Shown here piece after piece: positions 2,304 through 27,038 of a DNA stretch of 35,055 nt. This DNA comes from Phycisphaerales bacterium (GTDB taxonomy: Bacteria > Planctomycetota > Phycisphaerae > UBA1845 > Fen-1342). Both the position numbers and the translations under genes were made by a program. The notes under the pieces are model-generated. The model worked only from the letters and a program-made list of their open reading frames with translations. It was not told the DNA's origin and did not search any database. The stretch covers positions 1 through 35,055 of the forward strand of contig PMMM01000219.1 of the NCBI GenBank assembly GCA_003162245.1, given 5' to 3'. Numbering within the stretch: the stretch's first letter is position 1; every line of letters begins with the position of its first letter.

Positions 2304-5300
2304 TCATGTCCGCGGCGTCAGGGCGAAGCGGAGCGCGTGCGGGCCAACTTTGCCTTCGTGCGCGTCGCCGGTAAGGGGGCCGAAGGCGATTTCAGCGGCC
2401 AGGCACTCGTGCTTGAGGGTGTCGGCGAAGCGCTCGACCACTTGACGCAGCACGTCGTCGGTTTCGATCCGCAGGGTGACGCGGGCCTCGTACGGCAGGT
2501 TCATCTCTTTGCGGAGGCCCTGCACGTGGTGGATGACCTCGCGGATGAGGCCTTCGTCGAGCAGCTCGGGCGTCAGCTCGGTCTTGACGACGACGACGAC
2601 GACGCGGCCCTGGGCGGCGGACCAGCCGGGCTTGGCTTCAAGGCGGACCTGGACCTCCTGGGCGGTCAGATGGACGGCCTCGTTCTCGACGTAGACCACC
2701 AGCTCGCCGGTGGTTGTCAGGGACTGGCGGGCGGGGGCGGGGTCGAGCTTCTTCAGGGCGGCGGCGATCTTGGGGGCCTGCTGGCCGAACTTGGGGCCGA
2801 GGGCCTTGAAGTCGGGCTTGATCTGGTAGGTGACGTAGTGGTCGGCCTCGGTCGTGAACTCGACCTGCTTGATGTTGAGCTCCTCGGCGATGAGGGCGCG
2901 GTGGGTGTCGAGCCAGGCGGAGTGCTCGGGCTGGACGAGGATGATCTCGACGAGCGCGAGGGGCTGGCGGACCTTGAGCTTGGCGGCGGTGCGAGCGGCG
3001 CGGCCGAGCGAGACGATGTCGCGGACGAGGTCCATCTCGGCGACGAGGGATTCGTCGATGAGGGACTCGTCGGCGGTCGGGTAGTCGCAGAGGTGGACGG
3101 AGAGAGGGTTCAGGGCGCCGGCACGATGATCCCCGGGTCCCTTATTCCCTTGATCCCTCAGAACCTGGCCGCCGGTGAGGTTTTGGTACATGACCTCCGC
3201 GAAGAACGGCGTGAAGGGGGCAAGAAGCTGGCTGAGGGCGAGCAAGGTCTCGTAGAGTGTGTTGTACGCGTCCCATTTGTCCTGGTCGGCAGCGGAGAAC
3301 GCACCGCCCTTGCCCCCTTGATCCCTCGGTCCCTCAATCCCTCTCCAAAAGCGGTCGCGGGAGCGGCGGACGTACCAGTTGGAGAGGGCGTCGACGAAGT
3401 CCTTGAGGCGGCCGGCGGCGGGGTAGTTCTCGAAGCGGTCCATGGAGTCGCGGACGAAGCGGATCGTGCGGTGGAGCTCGCTGGCGATCCAGCGGTCGAG
3501 CTCGGAGCGCTCGGGGACGGGGCGCCAGCCGGTGGGGACCGCGCGGGCTGAAGCCCGCGGCTCAGATTCGGGGCGCGTTGGCGCGACGTCGAAGCCGTCG
3601 ATGTTCGCGTAGATGTTGAAGAAGCTGAAGACGTTGTAGAGGCGGACGAGGAACTCGCGCTGGGCGTCGCGGATGTTGGCTTCCTGGAAGCGGATGGAAG
3701 TCCAGGGCGTCTGGGCGCTGAAGAAGAACCACCGCATGGCGTCGGCGCCGTAGGTGTCGAAGATGAACGCCGGCTCCTTGTAGTTCTTCGTGCGCTTGGA
3801 CATCTTCAGGGCGTCCTCGCCCATGACGTGGCCGAGGACGATGCAGGTCCTGTAAGGCATGGGATAGCTGCCGGTAAGGACCGCGGTCTCGACCGAACAG
3901 CCCTCGCGCGGCGGCGACGCAGGAAAACCCCTCGCGCGCATCTCGTTGAGCTGCTGGGCGACCTCCGCACACATCTCCCGGGCTTGCTCGCCTTCAGGCA
4001 GTTGCAGAGAACCCGGCGAGGCGAATGCGCGGTGGAACGGGCTCGAAGCAACGTGCTTCATGATTGCCGCCACCTTCTCCGCCGTTACCTCGCCCGAGCC
4101 CAGATCTAGCGATGCACGGAGGCGCTTCATCGCCTCGTATTCGTCTTTCATGGCAGCATCGCCGAAAAGCAACGTGCTTATGGCGAGTAACCCGTAGAAC
4201 CAGCCGCGGGTCTGATCGATAGCCTCGCTGATGAAATCACAGGGAAACCGCTCGGCGAACGTCTGCACGCTGCCGCCGACGTGCGGGAAACCCCACTGTG
4301 CGAAGGGCATGCTGCCGGCGTCCCACCAGCAGTCGATGACTTCGGGGACACGACGCATCTTCGCGCCGGTCGCGAACGGGCTCTGGTACGTCCACGCGTC
4401 GATGTACGGCTTGTGAACGCGCAAATGGTCCGGGATCGTTGGGTCTTCGGCCTTCTTCGCCGCCCACATACCCTGCGGGCACTCCGGCGTCACATCCGTC
4501 GCGCCCGGCTTGGCCGTCAGCTCTGCCAGCGACCCGATTGCTTCCATCTGGCCGGTCTTTTCGCAGACCCAGATGGGCAGCGGGGTGCCCCAGTAGCGCT
4601 CGCGCGAAAGGGCCCAGTCGACGTTGTTGCGCAGGAAGTCGCCGAAACGACCTTCCTTAATGTGCTCGGGGAGCCAGTTGATCTTGTCGTTGTTGGCGAG
4701 GAACGCCTCCTTGAACTGGCTGGTGCGGACGAACCAGCTCTTGCGGGCATACTGGATGAGCGGGTCGTCCTCGGCGCGCGGGCAGAAGGGGTACTCGTGC
4801 TCGATCGTCTCCTGATGGAGCAGGACGCCGCGGTCCTTCAGCTCGCGCATGATCTCCTTGTCGCAGTCCTTGACCCAGCGGCCGCGGTAGGCGGGCGGGG
4901 CGTCGGCGGTGAACGTGCCGTCGGGGGCGACGGCGTTGAGGAGCGGGATGGCTTCGAAGCCGACGAAACGCTGTCGCTCGTCCTGGAGGAGCAGGAAGTC
5001 CACTTCGCCATAGGCCGGGGCTTCGTGGACGAGGCCGGTGCCGGTGGCGAGGTCGATGAAGTCGGCGGAGAGGACGCGCCAGCCGATCGCGGCCTGGCCG
5101 CCGGCTTTGAGCGGCGCCGTCTTTTCGGCCAGCGACTTGTAGTAGGTGTCGAAGGGCGGGATGTAGCGCAGGCCGACGAGATCGCGGCCTTTGCAGGGGG
5201 CGACTTCGGCGAACTCGTGCTTGAGCTTCGCGGCGGTGGGGGCGACGAGGGCGGACGCGATGTAGAAGTACTCGCCGGTCGTCGTGTCGTGGACGAGCGA

Positions 5301-6158
5301 GTAATCGACGTCCGGGCCGACGGCGGCGAAGTGGTTGCTGATGAGGGTCCAGGGCGTGGTGGTCCAGACGAGGAGGGAGACCTGGGAAGCAGGCGGGAGT
5401 TTCGCGTGCGGCGGCGGCTCGGCGGGAGCCTCGCCCTCCCCTGGCGCGCCTGCACGCCTGCGCGGGGTCGCGGCGTCGGCTGGTCCCTCAACCGCGCGGG
5501 CTGAAGCCCGCGGCTCAGGAACGAGCGGGAAGCGGATGTAGACGGAGGGGTCCTTGACCGTGCGGTAGCCTTCGCCGACCTCGCCGGCGGAGAGGGCGGT
5601 GCCGCCCTGGGCCCACCACCAGACGACCTTGTGGCCCTGGTAGAGCAGGCCGCGGTCGAAGAGCGTTTTGAGGCTCCACCAGACGCTCTCGACGTAGCTC
5701 TGGTGGAAGGTGACGTAGGCGTCCTCGAGATTGACCCAGAAGCCGAGGCGGCGGGTCATCTGCTCCCACTCGCGCGTGTAGCGGAAGACGCTTTCGATGC
5801 ACTTGCGGACGAATTTCTCGACGCCGTAGGTTTCGATCTCCTCTTTCGTGTGGATGCCGAGCTCTTTGCAAACCTCGACCTCGACGGGGAGGCCGTGGGT
5901 GTCCCAGCCGGCTTTTCGTTCGACGAGCTTGCCGCACATGGTCTGGTAGCGCGGAAAGAGGTCCTTGATGGCGCGGGTGAGGCAGTGGCCGGGGTGCGGC
6001 AGGCCGTTGGCGGTCGGCGGGCCTTCGTAGAAGACGAACCGCGGGGCGTCGCGGCGGATTTCGAGCGATTTTCCGAAGATGTCGTGCTTTTCCCAGAAGG
6101 CGAGGACGCGTTCCTCGGCCTCGGGGAAGCTGAATTGCGGCGGCAAAGGGTCGAACAT
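2304..6158 (-). CDS. ileS: isoleucine--tRNA ligase, type 2, with in-frame repeat insertions
   Basis: Charges tRNA-Ile. The class I signatures are HPGH at residues 55-58 (HIGH motif) and KMSKR at 785-789. GWDTHGLPVEVEV, an editing domain with LVWTTTPWTL and HEAPAYGEVDF, and an anticodon-binding domain are also present. The sequence resembles the eukaryote-like type 2 enzymes, which are known to be less sensitive to mupirocin. Length is 1,284 residues, about 200 more than is usual. The excess lies in low-complexity insertions near residues 213-258, 865-877, 938-953 and 997-1016, and in about 100 residues between LLFGD and YRTCIVLGHV before KMSKR. The ATG at 6158 has GGAG 6 bases upstream; the open frame continues 52 codons further without features. 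The enzyme should be functional because all core motifs are intact. Confidence 0.95.
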   Translation of the reverse strand: MFDPLPPQFSFPEAEERVLAFWEKHDIFGKSLEIRRDAPRFVFYEGPPTANGLPHPGHCLTRAIKDLFPRYQTMCGKLVERKAGWDTHGLPVEVEVCKELGIHTKEEIETYGVEKFVRKCIESVFRYTREWEQMTRRLGFWVNLEDAYVTFHQSYVESVWWSLKTLFDRGLLYQGHKVVWWWAQGGTALSAGEVGEGYRTVKDPSVYIRFPLVPEPRASARAVEGPADAATPRRRAGAPGEGEAPAEPPPHAKLPPASQVSLLVWTTTPWTLISNHFAAVGPDVDYSLVHDTTTGEYFYIASALVAPTAAKLKHEFAEVAPCKGRDLVGLRYIPPFDTYYKSLAEKTAPLKAGGQAAIGWRVLSADFIDLATGTGLVHEAPAYGEVDFLLLQDERQRFVGFEAIPLLNAVAPDGTFTADAPPAYRGRWVKDCDKEIMRELKDRGVLLHQETIEHEYPFCPRAEDDPLIQYARKSWFVRTSQFKEAFLANNDKINWLPEHIKEGRFGDFLRNNVDWALSRERYWGTPLPIWVCEKTGQMEAIGSLAELTAKPGATDVTPECPQGMWAAKKAEDPTIPDHLRVHKPYIDAWTYQSPFATGAKMRRVPEVIDCWWDAGSMPFAQWGFPHVGGSVQTFAERFPCDFISEAIDQTRGWFYGLLAISTLLFGDAAMKDEYEAMKRLRASLDLGSGEVTAEKVAAIMKHVASSPFHRAFASPGSLQLPEGEQAREMCAEVAQQLNEMRARGFPASPPREGCSVETAVLTGSYPMPYRTCIVLGHVMGEDALKMSKRTKNYKEPAFIFDTYGADAMRWFFFSAQTPWTSIRFQEANIRDAQREFLVRLYNVFSFFNIYANIDGFDVAPTRPESEPRASARAVPTGWRPVPERSELDRWIASELHRTIRFVRDSMDRFENYPAAGRLKDFVDALSNWYVRRSRDRFWRGIEGPRDQGGKGGAFSAADQDKWDAYNTLYETLLALSQLLAPFTPFFAEVMYQNLTGGQVLRDQGNKGPGDHRAGALNPLSVHLCDYPTADESLIDESLVAEMDLVRDIVSLGRAARTAAKLKVRQPLALVEIILVQPEHSAWLDTHRALIAEELNIKQVEFTTEADHYVTYQIKPDFKALGPKFGQQAPKIAAALKKLDPAPARQSLTTTGELVVYVENEAVHLTAQEVQVRLEAKPGWSAAQGRVVVVVVKTELTPELLDEGLIREVIHHVQGLRKEMNLPYEARVTLRIETDDVLRQVVERFADTLKHECLAAEIAFGPLTGDAHEGKVGPHALRFALTPRT
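3130..3158. repeat. 8-bp tandem repeat TCCCTNNN inside ileS
   Basis: TCCCT-like units start at 3130 (TCCCC), 3138, 3146 and 3154, a strict 8-bp period. The stretch encodes the charged linker RDQGNKGPGD in ileS. The same octamer recurs at 3314-3342 and at 34845-34865. Confidence 0.8.
3314..3342. repeat. 8-bp tandem repeat TCCCTNNN inside ileS, second array
   Basis: Units start at 3314 (CCCCT), 3322, 3330 and 3338, with an 8-bp period. It encodes IEGPRDQGGKGG in ileS, a linker absent from ordinary family members. Confidence 0.8.
3538..3565. repeat. 28-bp palindromic repeat inside ileS, copy 1
   Basis: This segment is identical to 5491-5518. The core is a palindrome, CGCGGGCT-GA-AGCCCGCG. It is read in the same frame as the other copy and encodes EPRASARAV. 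It lies in a surface-type linker of the synthetase. Confidence 0.9.
5491..5518. repeat. 28-bp palindromic repeat inside ileS, copy 2
   Basis: Exact copy of 3538-3565, same orientation and reading frame (EPRASARAV). It is followed on the coding strand by a second repeat-like segment encoding GEGEAPAEP (about 5412-5450). Confidence 0.9.
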
Positions 6159-6362: not shown

Positions 6363-7811
6363 CTACTCCGCCGCGGTTCCGGCCGGGGCGATGGCGGGGA
6401 CTTCGGCGGGGACCGGCGCGGCCGGTCGGCCGTCGAACAGCCGGATCTTCCGCCAGCCGCCGACGCGGTAGCGCCAGAGCAGCAGCAGGCCGAGCACCGA
6501 GAGGTAGACTACGGCCATCGCCCACGGACCGTGGACACCCCATTGGGGCCGATAGTGGGCCAGCGTGTACCCGCCGCCGATGAAGATGCCCCAGCAGCAC
6601 AGCCCGTTCAGCACCGCAGGCGTGCGCGTGTCGCCGGCGCCGCGCAGCGACGAGATGAACGTAATGCTCATCGCGTCGAAGATCTGGTAGATGGCGACCC
6701 AGCCCATGATGCCGACACCGATGGCGGCGACGGCGGCGTCGCTGGTGAACCACCACATGAGCGGAGCGCGGAAGGCGAACAGCAGCAGGCCGATCAGGCC
6801 CATGTAGGCCATCGTCAGCCCCAGGGCCACGTGCGTGCGGCGGACGGCCTCGTCGGGGCGGCCGGCGCCGACGGCGAAGCCGACCTGGCTGCACAGGGCC
6901 ATGCCGACGCCGATCGCCGGCATGAAGGCCAGGTGCGTGTATTGCAGGGCGATGTTGGTCGCGGCCAGCGGCGCGGTGCCGAACCACGGGACGATGACGT
7001 TGAGGAAGACGAGCCACGAGCTGATGTCGATCAGCCAGGCCGTCGCGGTCGGTCCGCCGACGTGCAGGATGTCCAGGCACTTGTGCCAGTCCAGCGCGAA
7101 CGCGCGGCGCGTGTGATACCTGCGGTTGCAGCGCGGCGAGCAGAACACGGCGAACAGCACGAGCACGCGGGCCCACCAGGCGAGCACCGTGGCCAGCGCC
7201 GAGCCGGCGATGCCCATGCGCGGGAAGCCAAAATGGCCCCAGATCAGCAGGTAGTTGCCGATCGTGATGGTCGCGAGCGAGACCACGACCGCGACCAGGG
7301 TGACGCGCGGCCGCTGGAGGCCGTTAAAGAAGCCCTCGAACCCGGCGGCGATGGCGGCCGGCACCATCGACCACACGGCGATATGCGTGTAGGTGATCTC
7401 GAGGTCGCGGACCGCCGCAGGCGAATTCGTGACGGTCCCGAGCCACTCGTACAACACGGGAACCAGGCGCGTGCCGGCGTAGGCCACCGGGACGAAGGCC
7501 AATCCGAGGTAGACCATTTGCCAGGCGTAGGCGGCGCCGCGTTCGGGCTCGCCGCGGCCGTCGGCCTGCGAGGCGAAGGTCTGCACGCTGGTGCCGGTGC
7601 CGGCGCCGATGCAGATGAAGGCCCACATCATGAGCGCGGCGGGCAGGATGGCCGCGAGGGCGTCGGTGCCGAGGCGCGAGACCATCGTCACGTCGATGAA
7701 GCCCATCAGCATGCGCGAGGTGGTCACGGCGATGAGCGGCAGCGCCAGCCGGAGCAGCTCGACGGTCGCCGTGCGGCGCGAAGTATCGAGGGTAGTTACG
7801 TTTTGCAACAC
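6363..7811 (-). CDS. MATE-family multidrug/cation exporter
   Basis: This 482-residue integral membrane protein has about twelve hydrophobic segments. The N-terminal half carries the MATE-like pattern LPLIAVTTSRMLMGFIDVTMVSR and SVQTFASQADGRGE. The family exports drugs, flavins or other small cations in exchange for Na+ or H+. The cargo here is unknown. The frame opens with GTG at 7811 (GTG TTG CAA). There is no ATG in frame nearby and only a weak GGGA upstream, so the start is uncertain by a few codons. An intrinsic terminator lies 40 bases upstream on the same strand, preceded by a structured leader with a good promoter, so expression is probably controlled by attenuation. ileS follows downstream after 204 bases. 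Confidence 0.9.
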   Translation of the reverse strand: MLQNVTTLDTSRRTATVELLRLALPLIAVTTSRMLMGFIDVTMVSRLGTDALAAILPAALMMWAFICIGAGTGTSVQTFASQADGRGEPERGAAYAWQMVYLGLAFVPVAYAGTRLVPVLYEWLGTVTNSPAAVRDLEITYTHIAVWSMVPAAIAAGFEGFFNGLQRPRVTLVAVVVSLATITIGNYLLIWGHFGFPRMGIAGSALATVLAWWARVLVLFAVFCSPRCNRRYHTRRAFALDWHKCLDILHVGGPTATAWLIDISSWLVFLNVIVPWFGTAPLAATNIALQYTHLAFMPAIGVGMALCSQVGFAVGAGRPDEAVRRTHVALGLTMAYMGLIGLLLFAFRAPLMWWFTSDAAVAAIGVGIMGWVAIYQIFDAMSITFISSLRGAGDTRTPAVLNGLCCWGIFIGGGYTLAHYRPQWGVHGPWAMAVVYLSVLGLLLLWRYRVGGWRKIRLFDGRPAAPVPAEVPAIAPAGTAAE

Positions 7812-7850
7812 GAGTATGTTCCCATCGTAGCGTGCCTTCGCAGGGGCACG

Positions 7851-7884
7851 AAAAAACCCTGGTCCCGCCGAGCGGGCCAGGGTT
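7851..7884 (-). terminator. intrinsic terminator in the leader of the MATE gene
   Basis: On the minus strand AACCCTGGCCCGC (7884-7872), loop TCG, then GCGGGACCAGGGTT (7868-7855) form a stem with a single bulged base. A run of six T (7856-7851) follows. It lies between a strong minus-strand promoter and the MATE start codon, so it would stop transcription before the gene. Confidence 0.8.
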
Positions 7885-7913
7885 CGTCGTCGTTTTCAGC
7901 CTTCGCGTGGGCC

Positions 7914-7979
7914 TTATGGCGGCGAGTGCAACCCCGGCACGCTCCTTGATTTAGCGTCAATGTAAATCGCCATAACCAT
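7914..7979 (-). CDS. putative 21-codon leader peptide
   Basis: The ORF starts at ATG 7979, begins MVMAIYIDAK and ends GLHSPP before TAA. AAAGGG at 7991-7986 lies 6 bases before the ATG as a possible Shine-Dalgarno. The start lies just before the 5' arm of the long stem, and the stop is inside its 3' arm. The antiterminator segment encodes the Ser-Val-Pro-Gly-Leu part. Ribosome position would therefore decide which RNA fold forms. It is too short to judge by codon use and could be a chance ORF in a structured RNA. Confidence 0.4.
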   Translation of the reverse strand: MVMAIYIDAKSRSVPGLHSPP

Positions 7980-8039
7980 CAAGCACCCTTTGTCGCCACG
8001 CCGCTGGATCGAACGCGAGCGGCCTGCGCGACTTTGCTT

Positions 8040-8068
8040 ACTATGCCCGCGCCGCGGAGATTTGTCAA
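8040..8068 (-). promoter_or_regulatory. promoter of the MATE leader transcript
   Basis: A consensus -35 TTGACA (8068-8063), a 17-base spacer and a -10 CATAGT (8045-8040) lie on the minus strand. A start near 8034 is expected. It is the best sigma-70-type promoter I see in the window. Confidence 0.65.
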
Positions 8069-8097: not shown

Positions 8098-8239
8098 CAG
8101 GGCAACCGCATTCTCGCCGGTTCGGCGGTTCGGGCGGGGTGACCGAGCGAAGCCACCCGCGACGGTCGCACAGGAACGGGGTTCGCCGGTGGCGACAACC
8201 CGTCTTTCCAGGTTTCGACCGGAGAATGCGGTTGCCCTG
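8098..8239. repeat. 142-bp inverted-repeat element with two internal hairpins
   Basis: CAGGGCAACCGCATTCTC (8098-8115) is the exact reverse complement of 8222-8239, and the stem continues inward with CGGT and ACCG. Inside lie two more hairpins. One is GCGGG(G)TG with CACCCGC (8134-8160). The other is built on TTCGCC GGT GGCGA with outer ACGGG and CCCGT (8176-8203). The whole folds as a cloverleaf. There are no ORF and no transposase. It lies between the MATE leader promoter and the DegP-type gene. It is probably a non-autonomous repeat; a structured RNA is possible. Confidence 0.7.
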
Positions 8240-8406
8240 GCAAGCCCGTGCCACCGCCCTGCGGTTTCCGGCGAAGAAAAGGATAGAATACGATGCGGAT
8301 GAATGCCGGGCAGCAGCGGACGCGCCGTGCGGCGCTGCCGTCCGGAACGGCGTGTTGGTTGAACGGCGGCTGCCGCTTTTCGGCGGGCGCAGGAGTGGCG
8401 AGGCGT

Positions 8407-9978
8407 ATGGACGTGTTGCGGTCGGGTTTGCGGGCGCGCTGGCCGGTCGTCGCGGTGCTGGTCTGGGTGTGGTCAGGCTTTCTCGGCGGGATCAGTGCCG
8501 AACGGCTGCTCGCAGCGGAGCGCGGGCGGAATCAGCCGGCGTCGGAGGACCTCGCGCAGCTCCAGACACAGTTGCCCGACATCCAGGCGATCTCGCGGGC
8601 GTTCAAGCTGGTCGCCAAGATCGCCCGCCCGGGCGTGGTGCACATTCGCGTCAGCGGCGGCGAGCGCGGCGCGATGTCGGAGGAGGAGATCGACGAGCGG
8701 CTCAAGAACCTCCCGAACGAAGAGCAATCCGACCCGAACGACCCGGAGGCCGCCAAGAAGCAGGAAGAACTGCGCGAGCAGGCGCGCCATATCCTCAAGC
8801 GCATGCAGCCGCCGCCGGGGGCGGGCAGCGGGATCATCCTCGACGCCGAGGGGCACATCCTGACGAACAATCACGTCGTCGCGGGGCGTGACGAAATCAC
8901 CGTGGTTTTGTCGGACGAGCGTGAGTTCCCCGGCAAAGTGGTCGGCACCGATCCGAAGACGGACCTCGCCGTCGTGAAGATCGACGCGCCCGACCTGCAT
9001 CCGCTCAAGCTCGGCAATTCGGACGAGATGGAGGTCGGCGACTGGGTGATCGCCGTCGGGTCGCCCTTCGGCCTGCAACACACCGTCACGCACGGTATCG
9101 TCAGCGCCCTGGGCCGGGCCGAGATCATGGGCGTCGGCATCGATTACCAGGATTTCATCCAGACCGACGCGGCGATCAACCCCGGGAACTCCGGCGGCCC
9201 CCTGCTAAATCTCCGCGGCGAAGTCGTGGGGGTGAACACGGCGATCGCGACACACGGCGACGGCGTCAACGCCGGCATCGCGTTTGCGATTCCCTCGAAC
9301 ATGGCGCTACGGGTCGCCGAGCAACTCAAGACCAACGGGAGTGTGACCCGCGGGTACCTGGGCATTGTGCCGCTGGCGGTGGAGAAGACCGACGTTGAGA
9401 TCTTCGGGTTGCCCTCCGCCGGCGGCATCCTGGTGGGCGACGTCGTGCGGAAGTCCCCGGCCGATCACGCCGGCCTGCAGGTGGACGACGTCGTCGTCAG
9501 CATCAACGAAGTGGAGATCGCCGGTCGGGAACAGTTTCGGCGGCTGGTTGCCGATCTGCGGCCGGATGAGCGCGTGCGCCTCCGCGTGATCCGGGATGGC
9601 CACGAGACGCCCGTCACCGTGCGGATCGGAGTCCAGCCCGAGGATCTGCGCAGGACCGCCGCGGTATCGACGCAGCTTGGGCGCGCGATCGCACGCCTGG
9701 GTCTGCGGGTGCGCACGCTGCGCGTCGGGATGTTGCCCGCGTTTGACGAGAATGCGCGCGGTGTGGTCGTCGTCGAGCGCGATGACGAGTCCAAGAACGC
9801 GCCGGACGTCGCCCCACGCGAGCTGGTGGTGGGCTGCAATGAGTATCCGGTAAAGACCGTGCACGACCTTGAAGAAGCCCTCACGCACATCCCCAAAAGC
9901 CACGAGATCGTGCTGAAGATCCAGGAGCCCACCGGCGACATGAAGCTGGTGCGCATCAAGCCGCGCAGCCGGCGGTAA
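8407..9978 (+). CDS. DegP/HtrA-type periplasmic serine protease
   Basis: Secreted trypsin-like protease of the HtrA family, involved in envelope protein quality control. With the start at 8407 it has 523 residues. A signal anchor (about 10-30, [17 protein letters not shown]) is followed by a charged segment (85-130). The protease domain carries the triad His156 (TNNHVV), Asp186 (KTDLAVV) and Ser262 (PGNSGGPLL). A PDZ domain follows at about 310-410. A second, degenerate PDZ-like domain reaches the C-terminus. Upstream ATGs at 8293 and 8299 are in frame but would put about 37 residues before the signal sequence; a TAGAAT box at 8284-8289 lies just before them. AGGAG at 8391-8395 precedes 8407. 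The start is uncertain, the family firm. Convergent with nadB. Confidence 0.92.
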
Positions 9979-26964: not shown

Positions 26965-27038
26965 GGTGGCGTGCCCGAGTGGACTAAGGGAGCGGATTGC
27001 AAATCCGTTTTTCATGGGTTCGAATCCCATCGCCACCT
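26965..27038 (+). tRNA. tRNA-Cys(GCA)
   Basis: A full cloverleaf of 74 bases. The acceptor stem is GGTGGCG with CGCCACC. The D-stem is CCC/GGG. The anticodon stem GCGGA/TCCGT has loop TTGCAAA (anticodon GCA at 26999-27001). The variable loop has 5 bases. The T-stem is ATGGG/CCCAT with loop TTCGAAT. The discriminator base is T (U73), the known identity base of tRNA-Cys. CCA is not encoded. A long ORF on the opposite strand across this gene is spurious. Confidence 0.95.

Follow-up and report, generated by a model that had tools for sequence, protein, structure and literature searches.

A classical attenuator is known for pheM-pheST of E. coli, and classical attenuation by tRNA charging has been documented mainly in Proteobacteria and Actinobacteria; the control of ileS, the gene of isoleucyl-tRNA synthetase (IleRS), has been documented mainly through T-boxes. 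In Streptomyces, candidate classical attenuators have been described in the leaders of leuS and trpS (PMC1262725). ileS is a T-box gene in Firmicutes and has a translational T-box in Actinobacteria (PMC1262725, PMC2494555), and a 2008 survey found the T-box absent from its one planctomycete (PMC2494555). In the open-access literature, to which the search was confined, no leader-peptide attenuator has been reported for ileS, nor any in Planctomycetota. The element described here lies upstream of a MATE exporter gene and ileS, and at the sequence level it has the features of a classical attenuator. Like the classical attenuators of aminoacyl-tRNA synthetase genes, it combines cognate codons in a leader peptide, an antiterminator and a terminator that exclude each other, and a synthetase gene downstream; it differs from them in the cognate amino acid, isoleucine, in the synthetase gene, ileS, in the exporter that stands in between, in a weaker codon run (1-6 Ile), in an antiterminator that extends over the last part of the leader ORF, in the Pro-Pro-stop that closes leaders of one family (f1), and in the phylum, Planctomycetota. 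Attenuation of synthetase operons is thus a known kind of control, while a version for Ile and ileS, joined to an exporter and occurring in Planctomycetota, can provisionally be regarded as undescribed in the open-access literature.

The window, a stretch of 35,055 nucleotides, is contig G000:C82 of a 4.76-Mb draft genome. On its minus strand the leader is followed by the MATE gene (6363-7811) and then by ileS (2304-6158). The former encodes a NorM-like MATE family efflux transporter of 482 aa (PF01554, E 2.8e-38; TIGR00797, 205 bits, above the cut-off), whose named relatives belong to MAGs of Phycisphaerae and Planctomycetota. The latter, recognized by TIGR00392, likely starts at ATG 6158, 204 nt after MATE, and is the sole IleRS match in the source genome. 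A scan of the 170 nt upstream of ileS in each of 15 operons found no promoter-like site (at least 9/12), and ileS is presumably co-transcribed with MATE. On the plus strand, the divergent neighbour is a gene for an HtrA/DegP-type protease (8293-9978). The divergent intergenic region contains an 18-nt perfect inverted repeat, CAGGGCAACCGCATTCTC, with arms at 8098-8115 and 8222-8239, 106 nt apart, just upstream of the leader promoter; a tRNA gene is found elsewhere in the window (26965-27038, plus strand).

The preliminary description of this DNA had proposed a promoter, a structured leader with a 21-codon ORF and a terminator with six T ahead of MATE, all on the minus strand, and each of these parts was recovered. 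The -35 hexamer TTGACA (8063-8068) and the -10 hexamer CATAGT (8040-8045), separated by a 17-nt spacer, form the sole promoter-like site between 5000 and 11000, where a scan for sigma70-like sites expects 0.3. The leader of 185 nt folds better than 200 out of 200 dinucleotide shuffles (z -3.45). Its ORF, MVMAIYIDAKSRSVPGLHSPP followed by a stop, extends from ATG 7979 to TAA 7914; an SD-like AAGGG read from the sequence (7986-7990) precedes the start by 6 nt, and an additional in-frame ATG occurs at 7973. Codons 5 (7965-7967) and 7 (7959-7961) are both ATT for isoleucine, and the two codons directly before the stop, CCG CCA (7917-7922), encode Pro-Pro. The intrinsic terminator hairpin GAACCCTGGCCCGCTCGGCGGGACCAGGGTTT (7854-7885; -24.6 kcal/mol), with left arm GAACCCTGGCCCGC (7872-7885), ends in a run of six T (7851-7856), and the GTG start of MATE, at 7811, lies 39 nt further on.

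The upstream regions of MATE orthologues, which were present in 25/27 genomes of the family and in 99/114 of the order, mostly MAGs, were read for the same arrangement. It recurs in 40 non-redundant leaders from three families (f1, to which the window belongs, f8 and f7) of one order of Phycisphaerae (Planctomycetota). The choice of leader ORFs rested on their start codon, their length and how far they lie from the terminator, irrespective of Ile content; the one exception is an additional leader with a TTG start in family f4 (L071), which was sought owing to the presence of a MATE–ileS pair. The ORFs have 17-34 codons, and in the 40 leaders the gap from stop to terminator is 24-39 nt (median 29, mean 30, sd 3.7). 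Of 53 other terminators at these loci, two are preceded by an ORF of this kind and none by one ending in Pro-Pro-stop, while promoter-like sites (at least 9/12) stand upstream of 23/40 leaders as against 3% of shuffles. Since the arrangement occurs at 40 non-redundant MATE loci as compared with 2/53 background terminators, it is not due to chance: a short ORF, whose conservation suggests that it is translated, precedes an intrinsic terminator ahead of structural genes. Searching DNA with the leader yields little because the leaders diverge too fast; indeed, BLASTN within its own genome and family gave partial matches only, the clearest being the terminator region of genome G013. Base-pair covariation in a fixed register was at best weak (p 0.013 in f1, 0.22 in f8 and 0.84 in f7). 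At two f8 loci, L039 and L045, the gene before MATE has a NifU-like C-terminus, and in L039 it stops 26 nt before the terminator, replacing the leader.

A metabolite-binding riboswitch had been named as the alternative, and the highly structured naked leader would suit a riboswitch or a stand-alone small RNA (6S-like) that contains the ORF by chance. This explanation is very improbable: Rfam returned no match in the leader, at the gathering score or at E values up to 5, T-box and riboswitch models included, in agreement with the earlier impression that the leader fits no described RNA family; the ORF is retained despite the divergence of its codons, while neither the leader sequence nor the naked fold is conserved, and the element keeps its place relative to MATE. 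A 6S-like rod, suggested by the naked minimum free energy (MFE) fold, was ruled out because position and ORF, and not the fold, are conserved. The ileS T-box is likewise a control by tRNA-Ile charging, as proposed here; however, it binds the tRNA directly, whereas in this leader the translated ORF is the proposed sensor and the Rfam search gave no match to the Stem I specifier loop and T-box sequence.

The alternative pairings on which a translated switch would depend were examined in the window and then in the 40 leaders. The antiterminator segment AGCGTGCCGGGGTTG (7929-7943), in the codons for S-V-P-G-L, pairs with the left arm of the terminator at -21.9 kcal/mol (z -3.0 relative to shuffles), and the pairing of 7942-7930 with 7884-7872 comprises 11 Watson-Crick pairs, one G-U and one mismatch, exactly as first counted. 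The proposed sequestering stem, made by TTATGGCG (7968-7975), which covers leader codons 2-4, and CGCCATAA (7914-7921), which overlaps the Pro-Pro-stop, is a perfect 8-bp helix spanned by the leader ORF in the window; it is kept in some relatives only, and a general stem between the early ORF and the stop region is not conserved in f1 (p 0.81) and weak in f8 (p 0.009). The leader is highly structured, as described previously, although the MFE fold computed for the whole naked leader differs from the three-way junction drawn at first. Across leaders, a segment near the stop is more complementary to the left arm of the terminator than dinucleotide shuffles are (Stouffer z -7.1; Fisher 1.7e-8). 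In f1 the antiterminator often occupies the Pro-Gly codons that precede the end of the stop by 15-28 nt, while the f8 segment often runs across the stop codon, as in GGCTTCCTAGGCC facing GCCCTGGAAGC. Swaps of terminator arms within a family, a test of low power, gave p 0.23 in f1 and p 0.12 in f8.

The effect of the ribosome was calculated as how firmly the upstream RNA occupies the left arm when a ribosome-sized block is placed early in the ORF, at its stop, or is absent; constrained free energies replaced the pairing probability of the left arm, which is too noisy in G+C-rich RNA. In natural leaders the mean antitermination energy was 7.2 kcal/mol with the early block, 5.7 for the naked RNA and 5.1 with the block at the stop (n=40), while leaders with shuffled ORFs gave 5.3, 5.3 and 5.0 kcal/mol, respectively; the window leader gave 9.9, 4.7 and 6.0 kcal/mol. 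The early block thus exceeded the naked state (p 2e-5) and the late block (p 5e-5), and the early-late contrast was larger in natural than in shuffled ORFs (p 2.5e-4), all p-values being only descriptive because the leaders are related. Since the early block gives the highest sequestration of the left arm, the model assigns the antiterminating state to an early-held ribosome and the terminating state to a ribosome at the stop and to the leader without a ribosome. In the window, a ribosome modelled at Ile codon 5 or 7 leaves the antiterminator free. Thermodynamically, antiterminator and terminator are predicted to be mutually exclusive in the 40 leaders, with the position of the ribosome deciding between them; the energies, both in the window and in the mean of the 40, therefore support the original idea of ribosome-mediated attenuation, with the antiterminator freed by a ribosome that stalls early.

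The leader ORFs are rich in isoleucine, which makes up 9.8% of residues in f1 and 11.5% in f8, as compared with 4.6% in the proteins of the window; f7 leaders are not Ile-rich. Linkage to ileS was determined by tblastn: ileS follows MATE on the same strand in 23 leader loci, whereas none was found within at least 5 kb in 13; L015, L018, L028, L053 and L074, with too little sequence past MATE, were left unscored. Isoleucine, the amino acid charged by IleRS, accounts for 72/537 residues (13.4%) in the 23 leaders with ileS downstream and for 5/313 (1.6%) in the 13 without (Fisher 2.5e-10), or for 68/520 and 5/313 when L071 is left out; no other amino acid differs between the two groups at p<0.05. 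At least two Ile are present in 18/23 leaders with ileS and in 0/13 without. The Ile hypothesis arose from the same data, after the leaders had been seen; for f7, L045, L049, L051, L052 and L053, however, the Ile counts preceded the determination of linkage. On the MATE tree, which has five changes of linkage, Ile followed linkage in 4.4 of five independent pairs and opposed it in none, the former figure being a mean over random independent pairings, for which the best attainable p with five pairs is 0.0625. Of two sister loci, L016, with ileS, has four Ile and L037, without it, has none; in one genus the corresponding numbers are four (L051) and one (L052). The f4 leader L071, xPTIDIKLITIGGHTPSS before the stop, is located upstream of a different, bacterial-type ileS. 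Ile occurs in 1/115 of the last five codons as opposed to 71/422 elsewhere, and the last five codons are where the antiterminator would be covered by a ribosome that stalls. With two Ile among its 21 codons the window leader has fewer than classical attenuators do, and leaders with ileS and a single Ile also exist (L017, L021, L022, L038, L040). A bias for ATT over ATC among leader Ile codons (49:30 vs 22:182) was discarded as a signal, as Val, Asn and Ala shift alike. No comparable leader was found before ileS genes unlinked from MATE, and none was seen at the MATE–ileS pairs of families f5 and f6 (L152, L156). Since leader Ile content tracks ileS, uncharged tRNA-Ile is indicated as the cognate signal.

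Several loci carry further genes. Between MATE and ileS there are, by eye, a pair of small ORFs that look like antitoxin and PIN-domain toxin genes in L087 (6499-7182), a GNAT-like acetyltransferase ORF in the f8 loci L099 (6406-6979) and L147 (1725-2511), and a transposase-like ORF in L097. In f7 (L055-L080; downstream regions L138-L145) the MATE attenuator is retained without ileS, and purN is the next gene in 4/8 loci. The f7 leaders are Thr-rich (12.5%); thrS was looked for downstream of MATE, and the genes identified there are purN or gdh. Upstream of L024, in genome G023, a possible decayed attenuator was noticed, with a promoter-like site, the ORF MPGRRSAGALAGARPP before a stop and a hairpin that lacks a good T run; in this genome ileS and MATE lie on different contigs.

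In the preliminary description the element was compared with the attenuators of antibiotic-resistance genes, and the resemblance is real: in the erm, msr and ABC-F leaders, and in toiL of E. coli (PMC12121999), the position of a ribosome on a short ORF likewise decides the RNA fold, and one downstream gene is an exporter. A drug-sensing attenuator of MATE would work by ribosome-targeting compounds that stall ribosomes early and free the antiterminator, with Ile codons and ileS incidental. Such a device would agree with antitermination upon early stalling, which suits any cause of the stall, with the NorM-like multidrug MATE downstream, with the persistence of leaders that lack both ileS and Ile (f7, L023, L027, L032, L037, L045), and with uORFs known to respond to several drugs (PMC12121999). 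It leaves unexplained, however, why Ile alone tracks ileS linkage, and why the attenuator is present in all 22 f1 and f8 loci with ileS while none is recognizable at L024, L030, L033 and L034, MATE loci without it. Unlike in antibiotic-responsive leaders, the Ile content follows the synthetase gene and not the resistance gene; moreover, toiL uses Rho (PMC12121999), whereas the window leader uses an intrinsic terminator. A switch dedicated to MATE and to antibiotics is therefore not the best reading of a leader whose MATE gene is followed by ileS, and we consider it rather unlikely, although drug-stalled ribosomes would probably trigger the attenuator as well. Because leaders persist without ileS and Ile in some loci, something else can be sensed there.

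A C-terminal proline slows peptide release, and slow release at the leader stop lowers basal read-through in the trp attenuator. Pro-Pro-stop ends 13/18 f1 leaders, with Pro codons CCG, CCA, CCC and CCT and varying stop codons; as both vary, it is the dipeptide itself that is kept. By analogy, it may hold the terminating ribosome in f1 leaders. The same ending could instead be read as a programmed, RAPP-like stall, tuned by a small molecule or by the level of EF-P, which would itself be the regulated step. Motifs of the RAPP type cause ribosome arrest (PMC10951233), and a copper operon is regulated by a uORF with RAPP (PMC9426467); a C-terminal (R)APP, as in the arrest peptides ApdA/ApdP (PMC10951233) and CruR (PMC9426467), is found in some leaders, and the varied third bases of the Pro codons fit this reading. 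RAPP itself closes L018 and L019 only, and the window leader ends in H-S-P-P. The peptides are short and end at the stop; Pro-Pro-stop, however, is absent from f8, f7 and some f1 leaders, where the attenuator is nevertheless retained. Furthermore, folding predicts that a ribosome held at the stop is the OFF state, not the ON state as in the arrest peptides, and a stall there would therefore repress rather than induce. An arrest-peptide switch is thus quite improbable.

Most likely, the element controls the MATE–ileS operon by ribosome-mediated attenuation in response to the charging of isoleucyl-tRNA, with Ile codons 5 and 7 as the putative sensor. Transcription would start near 8032. With abundant Ile-tRNA, the leading ribosome would pass the two Ile codons and reach the Pro-Pro-stop, where it would cover or disrupt the antiterminator, allowing the terminator (7885-7851) to form and keeping MATE and ileS low; the Pro-Pro-stop probably slows release, holding the ribosome in this OFF position while the terminator is made. 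When Ile-tRNA is scarce, the ribosome would wait at the Ile codons and cover the 5′ arm of the sequestering structure, the freed segment 7943-7929 would pair with the left arm of the terminator, and RNA polymerase would read into MATE and ileS. If no ribosome is present, the 5′ part of the leader would hold the antiterminator and termination would be favoured. A bolder proposal is that of a protection operon, whose leader would sense the uncharged tRNA-Ile caused by natural IleRS inhibitors and induce an inhibitor exporter together with fresh IleRS; here the Pro-Pro-stop would be a programmed holding device setting basal termination, and leaders that lose ileS would be retuned by loss of Ile codons. 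This extension is speculative and on balance unlikely.

If the tRNA-Ile-responsive attenuator is confirmed, it would extend classical attenuation to Planctomycetota, through leader-peptide control of ileS in Phycisphaerae, and would establish a connection between an exporter and the charging of tRNA-Ile. Judging by the Pro-Pro-stop, the speed of peptide release can be a tuned part of an attenuator, and the family as a whole would provide a natural experiment in which sensor codons come and go with the synthetase gene.
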